A stretch of 64,000 nt of DNA from contig NZ_JWLL01000003.1 in the NCBI RefSeq assembly GCF_000814025.1, forward strand, positions 62,001 to 126,000. The letters are read 5' to 3'. The number at the start of each line of letters is the position of its first letter. Positions within the stretch are counted from its first letter, which is position 1. The notes under the pieces were generated by a model, which had not been told where the DNA came from, did not search any database, and saw nothing but the letters and a program-made list of their open reading frames with translations. Of this stretch, positions 81 to 8,365 are shown piece by piece. The position numbers and the translations under genes were made by a program. This DNA comes from Tateyamaria sp. ANG-S1 (lineage in GTDB: Bacteria > Pseudomonadota > Alphaproteobacteria > Rhodobacterales > Rhodobacteraceae).

Positions 81-100
81 ATATTGTCACGTGACTATAT
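81..100. promoter_or_regulatory. Palindromic operator candidate
   Basis: The core GTCACGTGAC (86-95) is a perfect 10-bp palindrome. It is flanked by ATAT on both sides (81-84 and 97-100), so 18 of 20 positions are symmetric. It ends 20 bp before the ArsR-type start codon. ArsR-family dimers commonly bind such sites over their own promoters, so autoregulation is likely. That is inference from position and symmetry. Confidence 0.55.
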
Positions 101-119
101 AATCACATATAAGAATTCC

Positions 120-893
120 ATGGATGATCTGTTCAAAGCCTTGTCCGACCCCGCTCGCCGCACGCTGCTTGATGCTTTGCGCGACCGTGACGGTCAGACC
201 CTGCAGGACTTGCAGGGCCTGCTCGACATGACCCGGTTCGGGGTCATGAAGCATCTGGGTGTTCTGGAAGAGGCCGGGCTGATCACCACGAAAAAGGTGG
301 GGCGCTTCAAGCACCACTATCTCAACGCCCTGCCCCTGCAGGAAGCGATTGACCGTTGGATCGACCCCTACCGGGTCAAACCTGCGGCCCGAGCGGTACT
401 CGACCTCAAATATCAGCTTGAAGACGAAGGAGACCCCGAGATGTCAAAACCCGATTTCGTGATGGAGACATATATCAAGACCACGCAGGACCGTTTGTGG
501 GAGGTGCTGCTGGATGAAGATGCAGTGCGGCATTACCACTTCATCTGCAGCAAGGCGACGCGCAATGGTGATGCGATCACCATGCACTTTCCCGATGGCT
601 CGCCCATGCTGACCAACCGGCTGCTGTCATCGGATCCCAAAAGCCGGCAGGAATGGACATTCGAGCCGCATTGGGGCCCCACAACCGAGATCCCAGCCAG
701 CCGCGTGGTGTACTTGATACGTCCCGAGGGTGATTTTGTCCGTCTGACCGTCGAACACTATAAATTGGGCGAACCGGCCGTGCCGGGTGAAGGGGTGGCC
801 GATGGATGGGTGCGCTGGGCCGCGGGGCTAAAAACCTGGCTTGAGACGGGTGAAGACGCCCATATCGGCCCCATGGATCAGGTGGAGGCGTAA
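120..893 (+). CDS. ArsR-type HTH regulator fused to an SRPBCC domain
   Basis: The 257-residue protein has two parts. Residues 1-95 are an ArsR-like winged helix (FKALSDPARRTLLDAL, then a recognition region around DMTRFGVMKHLGVLEEAGLI). Residues 110-245 are an AHSA1/SRPBCC fold of the START/Bet v1 type, with a hydrophobic cavity that could bind a small ligand. Such fusions act as one-component transcription factors; the ligand here is unknown. The ATG at 120 is preferred over a TTG at 84, because the TTG lies inside the palindromic site at 81-100 and adds an unconserved extension. The MAPEG gene follows after 3 bp, so the two are probably cotranscribed. Confidence 0.85.
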   Translation: MDDLFKALSDPARRTLLDALRDRDGQTLQDLQGLLDMTRFGVMKHLGVLEEAGLITTKKVGRFKHHYLNALPLQEAIDRWIDPYRVKPAARAVLDLKYQLEDEGDPEMSKPDFVMETYIKTTQDRLWEVLLDEDAVRHYHFICSKATRNGDAITMHFPDGSPMLTNRLLSSDPKSRQEWTFEPHWGPTTEIPASRVVYLIRPEGDFVRLTVEHYKLGEPAVPGEGVADGWVRWAAGLKTWLETGEDAHIGPMDQVEA

Positions 894-3562: not shown

Positions 3563-3649
3563 CGGACGCCTCTGCGCCTGTCAAAGCGCCTGCACACATA
3601 CCCTAGCAACCGGGCGTTCCGTGGGCGCCAAACTGACGAGGATGCCGAT

Positions 3650-5593
3650 ATGGCCAAAGATCAGCAGCAGATTTCCCTTACTTTTCCCGACGGCAATGCA
3701 CGCGCCTACGACGCAGGCGTGACACCCGCTGCCGTGGCAGAGAGCATTTCCAAGAGCCTGTCCAAGAAAGCCATCAGCGCGACCGTGAACGGCCAGCACT
3801 GGGACTTGCAGTGGCCCATTGAGGGCGACGCAACGGTCGCCATCCACACCATGCAGGACGAGGCGCAGGCCAATGAGCTCGTGCGCCACGACCTCGCCCA
3901 CATCATGGCGCGCGCCGTGCAGGAGATCTGGCCCGATACCAAGGTGACCATCGGTCCCGTTATTGAGCATGGTTGGTACTACGATTTCGACCGGGAAGAG
4001 CCCTTCACCCCCGAAGATCTCGGTCTCATCGAAAAGAAGATGAAAGAAATCATCAACAAGCGTGACCCCGTGCGCACCGAGGTGTGGGACCGCGATGTGG
4101 CAATCCAGTTCTACAAGGACCGGAACGAGCCTTACAAGGTCGAGCTGATCGAGAGCATTCCAGGCGACGAACCGCTGCGTATGTACTGGCACGGCGACTG
4201 GCAGGACCTGTGTCGCGGGCCGCACCTGCAACACACCGGTCAGGTCCCCGGCGATGCGTTCAAGCTGATGAGCGTTGCCGGTGCCTACTGGCGCGGCGAT
4301 TCCGACCGGCAGATGTTGCAGCGCATCTATGGCGTCGCCTTCACCGGCAAGGAAAAGCTTAAAGCGCACCTGACCATGCTGGAAGAGGCCGCCAAGCGTG
4401 ACCACCGCAAACTGGGCCGCGAAATGGACCTGTTCCATTTCGAAGAGGTCGCACCAGGGTCGGTGTTCTGGCACCCCGCCGGCTGGCGCGTGTTCCAGAC
4501 CCTGATCGATTATATGCGCCGCCGTCAGGACGCGGTTGATTACATCGAGGTCAACACACCCGACATCATGGACCGGGCGTTGTGGGAAACCTCGGGCCAC
4601 TGGTTCAACTATATGGACAACATGTTCCTGGCCCAGACCCATGACGACCGGGACTATGCGCTCAAGCCGATGAACTGCCCGGGTCATATGATGATCTACA
4701 ATCATACCCTGCGCAGCTACCGGGAATTGCCCATCAAGATCTCGGAATTCGGCAAGGTACACCGGTACGAGCCGTCGGGTGCCCTGCACGGTCTTATGCG
4801 TGTCCGCAGCTTTACCCAGGACGATGCGCATATTTACTGCACCCCAGATCAGCTGTTCGAAGAATGTGCCAAGGTCAACAAACTGATCCTGTCCATCTAC
4901 AAGGATTTCGGCTTCGAAGACGTGCATGTCAAACTGTCGACCCGACCGGAAAACCGGATCGGCAGCGACGAGGTGTGGGACCTTTCCGAAGATGCACTGC
5001 GCACCACGCTGGAAGATGCGAACATGAACTACACCATCTTCGAAGGCGAAGGGGCGTTCTACGGGCCCAAGCTGGAATACGTTCTGCGCGACGCCATCGG
5101 GCGTGACTGGCAATGCGGCACCCTGCAGGTGGATTACAACCTGCCGGAACGCTTCGGTTCAACCTATGTCAGCGCCTCGGGCGAGAAACTGGCGCCGGTC
5201 ATGCTGCACCGCGCGCTCTTTGGCTCGCTTGAGCGGTTCACTGGCATCCTGATCGAGAACTGGGAAGGCAAGCTGCCCTTCTGGCTGGCCCCGCGCCAGG
5301 TCGTGGTCGCCTCGATCACGTCGGAGGCCGATGGATACGTGCAAGAGGTGGTCGACACCCTGCGCAAAGCAGGTGTGCAGGCCGAGGCGGACATGCGCAA
5401 CGAAAAGATCAACTACAAGGTGCGCGAACACTCGCTGTCGAAAGTGCCGGTCATCCTAGCCGTGGGCGCGCGTGAGGTTGAGGAGAAAACCGTATCCGTG
5501 CGCCGCCTGGGTCAAAAACAGACCAGCGTGCAGGCCTTGACAGATGTGACCGCACAGCTTGCGGCCGAGGCCACACCGCCGGATCTGCGGTAA
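3650..5593 (+). CDS. thrS: Threonine--tRNA ligase
   Basis: The 647-residue protein has normal bacterial ThrRS length and order. An N-terminal TGS domain (about residues 5-70) is followed by an editing domain with the HDLAHIMA motif, then the class II catalytic core with motif 2 ([22 protein letters not shown]) and motif 3 ([12 protein letters not shown]). The C-terminal anticodon-binding domain comes last. It charges tRNA-Thr with threonine in the cytosol. The start ATG 3650 follows GAGGA. A clear hairpin terminator lies 41 bp after the stop, separating thrS from the DUF2282 operon. Confidence 0.97.
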
Positions 5594-5633: not shown

Positions 5634-5668
5634 ATGGGCCGGAATCCAAGGGGATTTCGGCCCATCTT
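5634..5668 (+). terminator. thrS terminator
   Basis: ATGGGCCGGAAT (5634-5645) pairs with ATTTCGGCCCAT (5654-5665) over 12 positions with one G-T pair and an 8-nt loop. CTTCT follows. Confidence 0.65.
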
Positions 5669-5786
5669 CTGACATCTGATAACGGGTCTGTGACACACCA
5701 CCTCGTGAGTGGTAAGTTTTGGGCAAGCCATCTTATGTATGGCTCACGAACGCACAGTAACCGATCTCCGAAAGGGACGTTTGAAG

Positions 5787-6095
5787 ATGTCAAAAACCAT
5801 GAAATCCGTTGCCATCGTTGGCGCTGTTGCCGCTGCCATGACCGCCCATTCCGCTACCTCTGCCGAAGCAGCTGGCAAAGAGAAGTGCTATGGCATTTCG
5901 CTAGCCGGTGAGAACGATTGCGCCGCAGGCCCCGGCACCACATGCGCGGGCACATCGACCGTGGACTACCAGGGTAACGCCTGGACACTGGTTGACGCTG
6001 GCACCTGCGCCGAGATCGAGCTGCCTGCCATGGCAGACGGCACCGCACGTCAGGGCTCGCTCGAAGAGCTGGACCGCGACCTGCCCTCCGCTTAA
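5787..6095 (+). CDS. bufA1: Bufferin-type precursor peptide, DUF2282 (BufA1-like)
   Basis: The 102-residue protein has an N-terminal signal peptide (residues 1-29, hydrophobic core about 7-20). The secreted part has four cysteines, at 34, 45, 53 and 74, including the family's EKCYG motif (residues 32-36). DUF2282 proteins encoded beside DUF692 enzymes are the bufferins, ribosomally made peptides. Their cysteines are modified to thiooxazoles by the DUF692/DUF2063 pair, and they help the cell tolerate copper in the periplasm. It is the first gene of a four-gene unit. The ATG at 5787 is chosen because the signal peptide starts there and AAGGGAC precedes it; an upstream extension to 5709 lacks support. 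Confidence 0.88.
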
Positions 6096-6174
6096 GGCGC
6101 GCGTCACACGCCTGCGCCGGACCTTGGCGGGTCCGGCGCCCCCTACCTGATCCCACTGCTTCAAAGGGTCCGAG

Positions 6175-7035
6175 ATGCTGGATGCGACACTGACACCGCC
6201 CCGCCTGCCCGCCGCCCCCGGCGTGGGATACAAAGCGCAGCATTTCGCCGACCTGCGCGACGCGCCCGGCTCGGTGAAGTGGCTGGAAATACACGCAGAA
6301 AATTACATGGGCGATGGCGGTCGCCCGCATGCCCAACTGCGCGCACTGCGCGAGGATTTCGCCATTTCGGTCCATGGCGTGGGTCTGTCGATCGGCGGTG
6401 ACGGCCGCCTTGATCCGGACCATCTGGGTCGGCTGAAACATTTGGTAAGCTGGTTGGAACCCTCCAGCTTCTCCGAACATCTGGCATGGTCGACGCACGG
6501 GGCCGAGTTTCTCGACGATCTGCTGCCCCTGCCCTACACAGATGCGACCCTGACCCGCGTGGCTGAGCACATTGACGAGGTGCAGGAGGTTCTGGGCCGC
6601 CGGATGCTGCTTGAGAACCCGTCAAGCTATCTGGCCTTTGCTGAAAGCACCTGGTCCGAAACAGACTTCTTGGCCGAACTGGTCCGCCGCACCGGCTGCG
6701 GTCTGCTGCTGGACGTGAACAATGTGTTCATCTCCGCCACCAATCTCGACTACACGCCGCAATCATATCTCGACGCTTATCCCCTTGCCGCTATTGGAGA
6801 AATCCACGTGGGTGGACATGACGAGGATGAAGACGATCATGGCGCGCCGCTGTTGATCGACAGCCATGGGCGCGAGGCCGCGGAGCCTGTCTGGGCTTTG
6901 CTTGATCACGCGCTTGCTGGGACAGGGCCCGCACCTGTGCTGGTCGAATGGGACAATGATGTACCCGACTGGCCCACCCTGCGGGCCGAGGCCGAGCGTG
7001 CCGCCAGTGCCTTGGCCTCTGTGCCCGCCGGGTGA
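6175..7035 (+). CDS. bufB1: DUF692 multinuclear non-haem iron enzyme (BufB1-like)
   Basis: The 286-residue TIM-barrel protein shows the metal-ligand motifs of the MNIO/DUF692 family in order: EIHAENYMG (38-46), SVHG with His67, SEH (100-102), LENPSSY with Glu147 and Asn148, DVNN (180-183), HVGGH (211-215), DSHG (229-232) and EWD (258-260). The enzyme uses a two- or three-iron centre and O2 to modify cysteines of the precursor peptide. It needs the DUF2063 partner encoded next. It starts at ATG 6175, 79 bp after the precursor gene; the intervening bases carry a GC-rich inverted repeat (GCGCCGGACC/GGTCCGGCGC-like, about 6111-6139) that could tune expression of precursor against enzyme. Confidence 0.93.
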
Positions 7036-7039
7036 CGCA

Positions 7040-7798
7040 ATGACCACCACGCAAGCCGAGTTTCGCGCCGCATTGCTTGACCCTGCGCGCGCCGTGCCGG
7101 ACGGGCTGACCGATCCGAAGGGCCAGCCGACCAGCCGCCGTTTTGCCGTCTATCGCAACAATGTCACCGTCGCACTGATCGACGCCTTGCGCACCGGGTT
7201 TCCGGTTTTGTGCAAGCTTTTGGGTGATCAGAACTTTGATCAGCTTGCCCGGCTCTTCGCCCGCGCGCACCCACCGACATCACCGCTGATGATGCACTAT
7301 GGTGAGGATTTACCTGCCTTCCTCGACAGCTTCGAACCGCTGGCGCATATTGCGTATCTGCCGGATGTCGCACGCCTCGAACTGGCCTTGCGCCGCGCGT
7401 ATCATGCAGCGGACAGAACGGCTCTTGATCCGGCACGGCTGGGCGCACTCGATCCAGATGTTCTGATGCAAACACGGTTGCACCTGTCGCCAACCGTGCA
7501 ATTGGTCCATTCCCGGTGGCCCATTCACGACATCTGGCGGTACAACACCCAAGCGGATGCGCCAAAGCCGCGTGGCATCGCTCAGCCGGTCCTCGTGACA
7601 CGAGCCGCGTTTGACCCAGAGCCCCATGCCCTCACACTCGCCCAAGCCGCTTGGCTGCAGGCGATTGCAGAGAACGCACCGCTGGAAAAAGCCGTGGATG
7701 CGGCGACCGCGCACGACGCCGAATTCGACCTTGGGCCGCTGTTGACCCTTCTGATCCAGCACAACGCCCTGACTGACATCTCCACTCCAAAGGACTGA
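7040..7798 (+). CDS. bufC1: DUF2063 partner protein of the DUF692 enzyme (BufC1-like)
   Basis: The 252-residue protein has the N-terminal DUF2063 domain (FRAALLDPARAVPDGL, then RRFAVYRNNVTVALIDALRTGFPV, about residues 8-60). This domain binds the precursor leader and presents the peptide to the iron enzyme. The remaining residues form the usual smaller C-terminal domain. The start ATG 7040 is 4 bp after the DUF692 stop, which indicates translational coupling. A longer upstream reading inside the DUF692 gene is out of keeping with the family start. Confidence 0.9.
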   Translation: MTTTQAEFRAALLDPARAVPDGLTDPKGQPTSRRFAVYRNNVTVALIDALRTGFPVLCKLLGDQNFDQLARLFARAHPPTSPLMMHYGEDLPAFLDSFEPLAHIAYLPDVARLELALRRAYHAADRTALDPARLGALDPDVLMQTRLHLSPTVQLVHSRWPIHDIWRYNTQADAPKPRGIAQPVLVTRAAFDPEPHALTLAQAAWLQAIAENAPLEKAVDAATAHDAEFDLGPLLTLLIQHNALTDISTPKD

Positions 7799-7801
7799 AC
7801 C

Positions 7802-8365
7802 ATGACTGCCCTATCCCGCCTGCATGACGCGATCTTTGGCCCGCTTGAACGCACGGACTGGCTGTTGCCAACCCTCGCCCGTTTCCTCTTTGCCGCTGTT
7901 TTGGCGGTTTATTTCTGGGTGTCGGGCATGACCAAGCTGGGCGACGGCATCTTTGGCATCTTCCAACCGTCGCTGGGGGCCTATGCCCAGATCTTTCCCA
8001 AGGTGATGGAAAATGTCGGCTACGACGTCACGCAACTGGGCTTTTATCATTGGGCGGTGGTGACGGCGGGCACTGTGGCAGAGTTTGTTCTGCCCCTTCT
8101 CATCATCATTGGCCTGCTGACGCGGCTCGCGTCGCTGGGCATGATCGGGTTTATCGTTGTGCAATCGCTGACCGACCTGAACGGCCACGGCAAATGGGAC
8201 GACGCGCTGGTGTTGGGGGCGTGGTTCGATGCCCCCTCAAACAGCCTGATCATGGACCAGCGCGCGCTGTGGGTGTTCCTGTTGCTGCTTCTGGTGATCA
8301 AAGGGGCCGGGCCGATCTCGTTCGATCGGGCCCTTGCCCCCAAACCTGCGCCGGCCGCCGCCTAA
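7802..8365 (+). CDS. DoxX family membrane protein (BufD-like)
   Basis: The 187-residue protein has four transmembrane segments (around residues 24-42, 80-103, 110-128 and 152-170) and the DoxX pattern LARFLFAAVLAVYFWVSGMTKLGDG. DoxX members are common last genes of bufferin operons; the exact role in them is not settled, and a link to membrane redox or thiol chemistry is possible. It starts 3 bp after the DUF2063 gene and ends the operon. Its stop codon overlaps that of the opposing ArsC-like gene by 4 bp. Confidence 0.88.
   Translation: MTALSRLHDAIFGPLERTDWLLPTLARFLFAAVLAVYFWVSGMTKLGDGIFGIFQPSLGAYAQIFPKVMENVGYDVTQLGFYHWAVVTAGTVAEFVLPLLIIIGLLTRLASLGMIGFIVVQSLTDLNGHGKWDDALVLGAWFDAPSNSLIMDQRALWVFLLLLLVIKGAGPISFDRALAPKPAPAAA

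Follow-up and report, generated by a model that had tools for sequence, protein, structure and literature searches.

A Buf1-type bufferin operon of Tateyamaria with a conserved tandem-dyad promoter element in place of the SigF/NrsF switch

Introduction

The best-described relative of the locus studied here is a gene group of Caulobacter that encodes a DUF2282 protein (CCNA_03363), a DUF692 protein (CCNA_03364), a hypothetical protein (CCNA_03365) and a DoxX protein (CCNA_03366). According to excerpts of PMC8224329, these genes are copper-induced and controlled by SigF, NrsF is the anti-sigma factor of SigF, and a sigF mutant is copper-sensitive. The core of a bufferin cluster comprises a precursor, an MNIO enzyme, a DUF2063 partner and a DoxX protein (PMC12452194, in part). 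In Buf1 bufferins the two central cysteines are modified and the first and last are joined in a disulphide, as a figure legend of that source states, and its Table 1 gives the thiooxazole chemistry of bufferin relatives. Captophorins such as fontiphorin bind copper, and their 5-thiooxazoles are installed by an MNIO enzyme with its partner (PMC13097082, in part).

The window analyzed here is a stretch of 64,000 nucleotides from Tateyamaria sp. ANG-S1 (contig NZ_JWLL01000003.1, positions 62,001 to 126,000). All features given below lie on its forward strand.

A Buf1-type operon

The window encodes a complete bufferin-type operon at 5787-8365, as a first-pass annotation had proposed, and profile matches for the precursor, a BufB-type maturase, a DUF2063 protein and a DoxX protein place it with the Buf1 type. 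The first gene, bufA (5787-6095), encodes a DUF2282 (Buf1) bufferin precursor of 102 aa (PF10048, E = 2.3e-24, 85.6 bits) that carries the four cysteines, at residues 34, 45, 53 and 74, and the EKCYG motif noted earlier. By inspection of the sequence, residues 1-29 consist of lysines followed by a hydrophobic, alanine-rich stretch. A probable ribosome-binding site, AGGGA, can be read at 5773-5777.

After a gap of 79 bp, read from the sequence, follows bufB (6175-7035), encoding an MNIO family bufferin maturase of 286 aa. Its reading as a DUF692 multinuclear iron enzyme is confirmed by 360.1 bits on NF050167 (MNIO_BufB, cut-off 310) and by PF05114 (3.8e-100). Residues identical with the aligned structure 3bww include H67, H102, E147, N148, D180, N183, H211, H231 and E258, which we take to be the metal ligands. 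The closest named relatives are those of Tateyamaria omphalii strains, with 96 and 92% identity. MbnB of the methanobactin pathway is an MNIO homolog with solved structures, but BufB of the window scores 50.9 bits on the MbnB model, far under its cut-off of 325.

bufC (7040-7798) encodes the DUF2063 partner protein of 252 aa (PF09836, 2.6e-27). The DUF2063 domain spans residues 4-95; outside it, no Pfam domain was found, and a sequence search returned no solved relative. The last gene (7802-8365) encodes a DoxX family membrane protein of 187 aa (PF07681, 3.3e-08). The short spacing reported after the enzyme is present, with 4 bp between bufB and bufC and 3 bp between bufC and the DoxX gene. 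In profile searches bufC stays below the HvfC cut-off (NF050145, 63.6 vs 142 bits) and the DoxX protein below that of HvfX (NF050144, 25.5 vs 80 bits).

The operon is common in the host family. Among 248 sampled genomes of Rhodobacteraceae, 178 have a BufB match in profile searches, 177 of them above the cut-off. Of 211 loci of relatives, 210 encode a four-cysteine precursor with spacing 11, 8 and 21 no more than 900 nt upstream of the enzyme gene, and this identical spacing argues that the operon is no chance assembly. The first cysteine lies in EKCYG in 129 of these 210 loci and in EKCFG in 71.

CCNA_03362-03366, presumably the bufferin operon named gig, is the Caulobacter counterpart. Since CCNA_03363-03366 matches the gene set of the window, we regard the operon as one of a known kind. 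The gene order DUF2282, DUF692/MNIO, third protein and DoxX is the same in both (PMC8224329, in part). Compared with Buf1 (DUF2282) bufferins in general, the window operon shares the core, and we found no difference in it. Its chemistry most likely follows that of the Buf1 bufferins already known. The MNIO enzyme and partner are also alike in the captophorins; the fontiphorin precursor has EGKCG repeats, whereas that of the window is a DUF2282 protein with four fixed cysteines.

Absence of the Caulobacter switch and of a conserved local regulator

The first-pass annotation had placed control elsewhere in the genome on the grounds that no ECF sigma or anti-sigma gene is adjacent, and there is indeed none among the nine flanking proteins scanned. 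The Caulobacter switch of NrsF and a close SigF is, beyond being non-local, missing genome-wide. A profile search that was positive for the Caulobacter control found no NrsF in the whole genome of the strain (0/1), and SigF of a relative matches only three ECF-like proteins there, with at most 33% identity.

A consistently conserved local regulator gene was sought among the clustered neighbors of the 211 loci and rejected, as none occurs. These neighbors, named by eye, include thrS, an ArsC-like protein, a small membrane protein, a ThyX-like protein and others; a MarR-like gene, likewise named by eye, is found in only 11/211 loci. A regulator of the CopR type was also rejected, as TIGR01387 has 38 matches in the genome and none over the cut-off. 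The nearest of these adjoins an apparent histidine kinase and a ferredoxin-reductase-like protein, with no copper gene seen by eye.

Upstream of the operon and outside it lies thrS (3650-5593), encoding threonyl-tRNA synthetase (Pfam TGS, tRNA_SAD, tRNA-synt_2b and HGTP_anticodon). Of 81 family loci with the element, 68 show thrS upstream of the buf genes; some of the available flanks do not reach that far. It is followed by a hairpin at 5634-5665 (14-bp stem, -25.4 kcal/mol, z -4.96), a probable terminator that was not listed by a terminator scan because it has no long T run. This hairpin probably separates thrS from the buf promoter.

thrS itself looks mosaic in sliding identity to relatives. 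Against T. omphalii (L032), identity is 0.81-0.93 over about 3600-4400, 0.59-0.69 over 4400-5200 and about 0.78 thereafter; the value for the more distant L073 holds at about 0.8 over 4000-5200. Further upstream, 4.9 kb from the operon, window positions 84-893 encode a fusion protein with HTH_20 and AHSA1 domains.

A tandem-dyad element in the buf promoter

A conserved tandem-dyad element at 5670-5710, overlooked in the first-pass annotation, occupies the place of the missing regulator. A motif search of the DNA ahead of bufA in relatives yielded a 30-bp element in which two AC-N6-GT dyads are spaced 15 bp apart, with a T.AC half-site before them. Its consensus is ACN6GTGN3CACN6GTGANT, and it lies ahead of a sigma-70-like -10. 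In the window the element, a putative activator site, stands at 5681-5710 and scores 29.2, against a maximum of 11.2 among 130 reversed controls. The outer half-site TGAC is at 5670-5673, positioned from the sequence, and corresponds to T.AC at offsets -11 to -8, with column frequencies of 0.79, 0.72 and 0.84 over 125 non-redundant loci.

For the motif matrix, 90 loci from L001-L111 served as the training set, which overlaps part of the 131 family loci counted below. Ruegeria pomeroyi (L084) is among the relatives that have the element. Among held-out loci outside the training set, 67/99 carry the element, compared with 0/99 reversed and 0/99 coding controls. It is present in 76/79 usable loci from genome contigs and missing in 3/79. 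In one of these three, from Primorskyibacter flagellatus (L106), thrS and bufA are instead separated by NrsF.

Downstream of the dyads is a putative -10 box, TATGTA, at 5734-5739, which lacks the final T and is separated by 17 bp from a poor -35 at 5711-5716. TANNNT occurs at one of two neighboring -10 offsets in 71/125 non-redundant loci, against an expectation of about 1.3 per offset; there is little conservation at the -35 position across the loci of relatives. A consensus scan found no sigma-70 promoter. The weak -35 and the dyad just upstream of it suggest an activator-dependent promoter.

The element precedes bufA in 156 of 157 element-bearing loci, with the first cysteine codon a median of 208 nt downstream. 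In the sole exception, L194 (genome G063), a hairpin with a T run separates bufB from bufA; the element precedes bufB, and bufA has its own copy with two mismatches. The element thus follows the buf genes.

Specificity of the element

The strong link with buf operons is also seen on the genome scale. A degenerate exact pattern occurs 89 times, in 83 of the 248 host-family genomes, compared with once for the reversed control. Buf operons account for 77/89 (nine assignments confirmed in locus DNA, four confirmed separately and 64 made by coordinates relative to BufB matches), and 12/89 lie elsewhere. Outside the host family, the exact element occurs in 6/285 genomes against two control matches, which is near chance.

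The 12 sites elsewhere could mean that a global regulator binds the element as well as many weaker sites and has in the buf promoter only the best conserved of its targets. The geometry of the element, which resembles what we take to be the copper-box TNAC-N6-GTNA, is compatible with this, as are 11 near full-length hits of the response-regulator model TIGR01387 in the strain's genome, none of them over the cut-off. We consider this reading less likely than not. The 12 sites show no shared target gene: the ORFs around ten of them, viewed by eye, have no common gene, and there are no buf genes at the remaining two, so that further shared targets were rejected. Moreover, the window holds the single exact match in the strain's own genome in a search for full elements, which would miss single dyads.

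The near confinement of the element to buf promoters would also fit autoregulation, in which the operon's promoter is bound by one of its own products, for example the DUF2063 protein. Pfam calls DUF2063 a putative DNA-binding domain, and autoregulation would account for the lack of a separate regulator alongside the operon, as no regulator gene is consistently present in buf neighborhoods. However, the loci with NrsF have a DUF2063 protein but lack the element, and DUF2063 proteins act as enzyme partners in precursor modification (PMC12452194, in part). Autoregulation is therefore highly improbable in our view, and we favor a separate activator bound at the dyads.

Element and SigF/NrsF across family loci

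Most loci of the family carry either the element or an adjacent NrsF. We used 131 loci (31 plus 100 in listed order, two of them from genome G233) from the 178 genomes with a BufB match; dropping L208 for its short upstream sequence left 130, of which L002-L031 have a flank of 1.5 kb only. The element without an adjacent NrsF occurs in 80 loci, an adjacent NrsF without the element in 21, both in one and neither in 28; none of the 130 reversed upstream sequences exceeds the element threshold. The one locus with both, L027, has a marginal element score of 16.8. By profile search, NrsF is over the cut-off in 35/248 host-family genomes. Its genome-wide presence agrees with adjacency except in L196, whose genome bears the element and has NrsF on a different contig, and in three element-less loci with a non-adjacent NrsF.

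The loci with neither state are not uniform. Under a relaxed pattern, 7/28 hold variants of the element, compared with 0/30 reversed sequences. L267 (genome G100), one more of these loci, has two tandem precursor ORFs before bufB, and its element is placed further upstream of the doubled bufA.

On a BufB tree three changes suffice to explain the element and NrsF states, and there are not enough independent pairs for a sign test, so that a Fisher p of 7e-10 overstates the evidence. In this tree the sequence of L217 fills only 18% of the columns, and L015 sits on a very long branch. Most of the contrast goes back to a single old split. L190 (genome G192) and L261 (genome G010) keep thrS upstream, have SigF and NrsF between thrS and bufA together with a SigF box, and lack the element. 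Both are nested among element-bearing loci in the tree, on weakly supported branches, which fits a later regain or a retention.

The pattern GTAAC-N16/17-CG from Caulobacter work, which we take to be the SigF-type box, is present upstream in 20/22 loci with NrsF and in 7/108 others. The window is among these seven, with GTAACC-N16-CGTT at 5757-5781, upstream of bufA. A SigF-type ECF sigma factor encoded elsewhere might then still drive the operon from this promoter. Such an arrangement has a parallel in genome G175 (L187), where a SigF-type box is present and NrsF lies elsewhere in the genome, and GTAACC is kept in four of five Tateyamaria-type loci, including L034, which has no scoring element. 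Yet CGTT is kept in only two of the five (the window and L033); the -10 is changed in L032 and L034, and the box is absent in L035. The strain also has no NrsF, and its best SigF-like protein is 33% identical. Above all, the box overlaps the ribosome-binding site, and a transcript from it would begin at about the start codon and omit AGGGA. We thus judge a SigF promoter at this box unlikely and retain the dyad-bound activator as the preferred reading. L034, from an uncultured Tateyamaria congener, has the operon genes, and its DNA upstream of bufA looks shortened.

Discussion

The locus in the window is probably a Buf1-type bufferin (captophorin) operon whose promoter is run by an activator at tandem dyads under metal stress. 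Under such stress a putative DNA-binding activator would bind the dyads at 5670-5710 and switch on the promoter at about 5711-5740. BufB and BufC may then oxidize the two central cysteines of the precursor, Cys45 and Cys53, to 5-thiooxazoles, as in characterized relatives, and Cys34 and Cys74 would form a disulphide. The peptide would be exported by Sec and, if it acts as its relatives do, buffer copper in the periplasm, with the DoxX protein assisting the peptide system. We infer activation rather than repression from the layout of the promoter, and the element's near restriction to buf promoters points to a dedicated regulator.

The Caulobacter operon is under SigF and NrsF, whereas the window's genome is without NrsF and its promoter has a different element. 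This promoter variant of a known operon, a lineage-wide alternative to SigF/NrsF control, is apparently undescribed. Nothing that we found in the literature searched, whose coverage excludes the founding bufferin paper, dealt with the control of bufferins in roseobacters. A term search of the R. pomeroyi iron/DFB paper gave no mention of these genes, and the word "promoter" has no occurrence in the main text of PMC12452194.

For the Roseobacter-type branch as a whole, the chances seem about even that the buf genes are under a dedicated, undescribed metal-responsive activator rather than SigF/NrsF, with a site almost only at buf promoters. Bufferins are a widespread family of copper-handling peptides, and in the literature searched their control is described only via SigF/NrsF. 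Many members of the host family without NrsF share the strong conserved element, which could provide a 40-bp bait for a second route of bufferin control.
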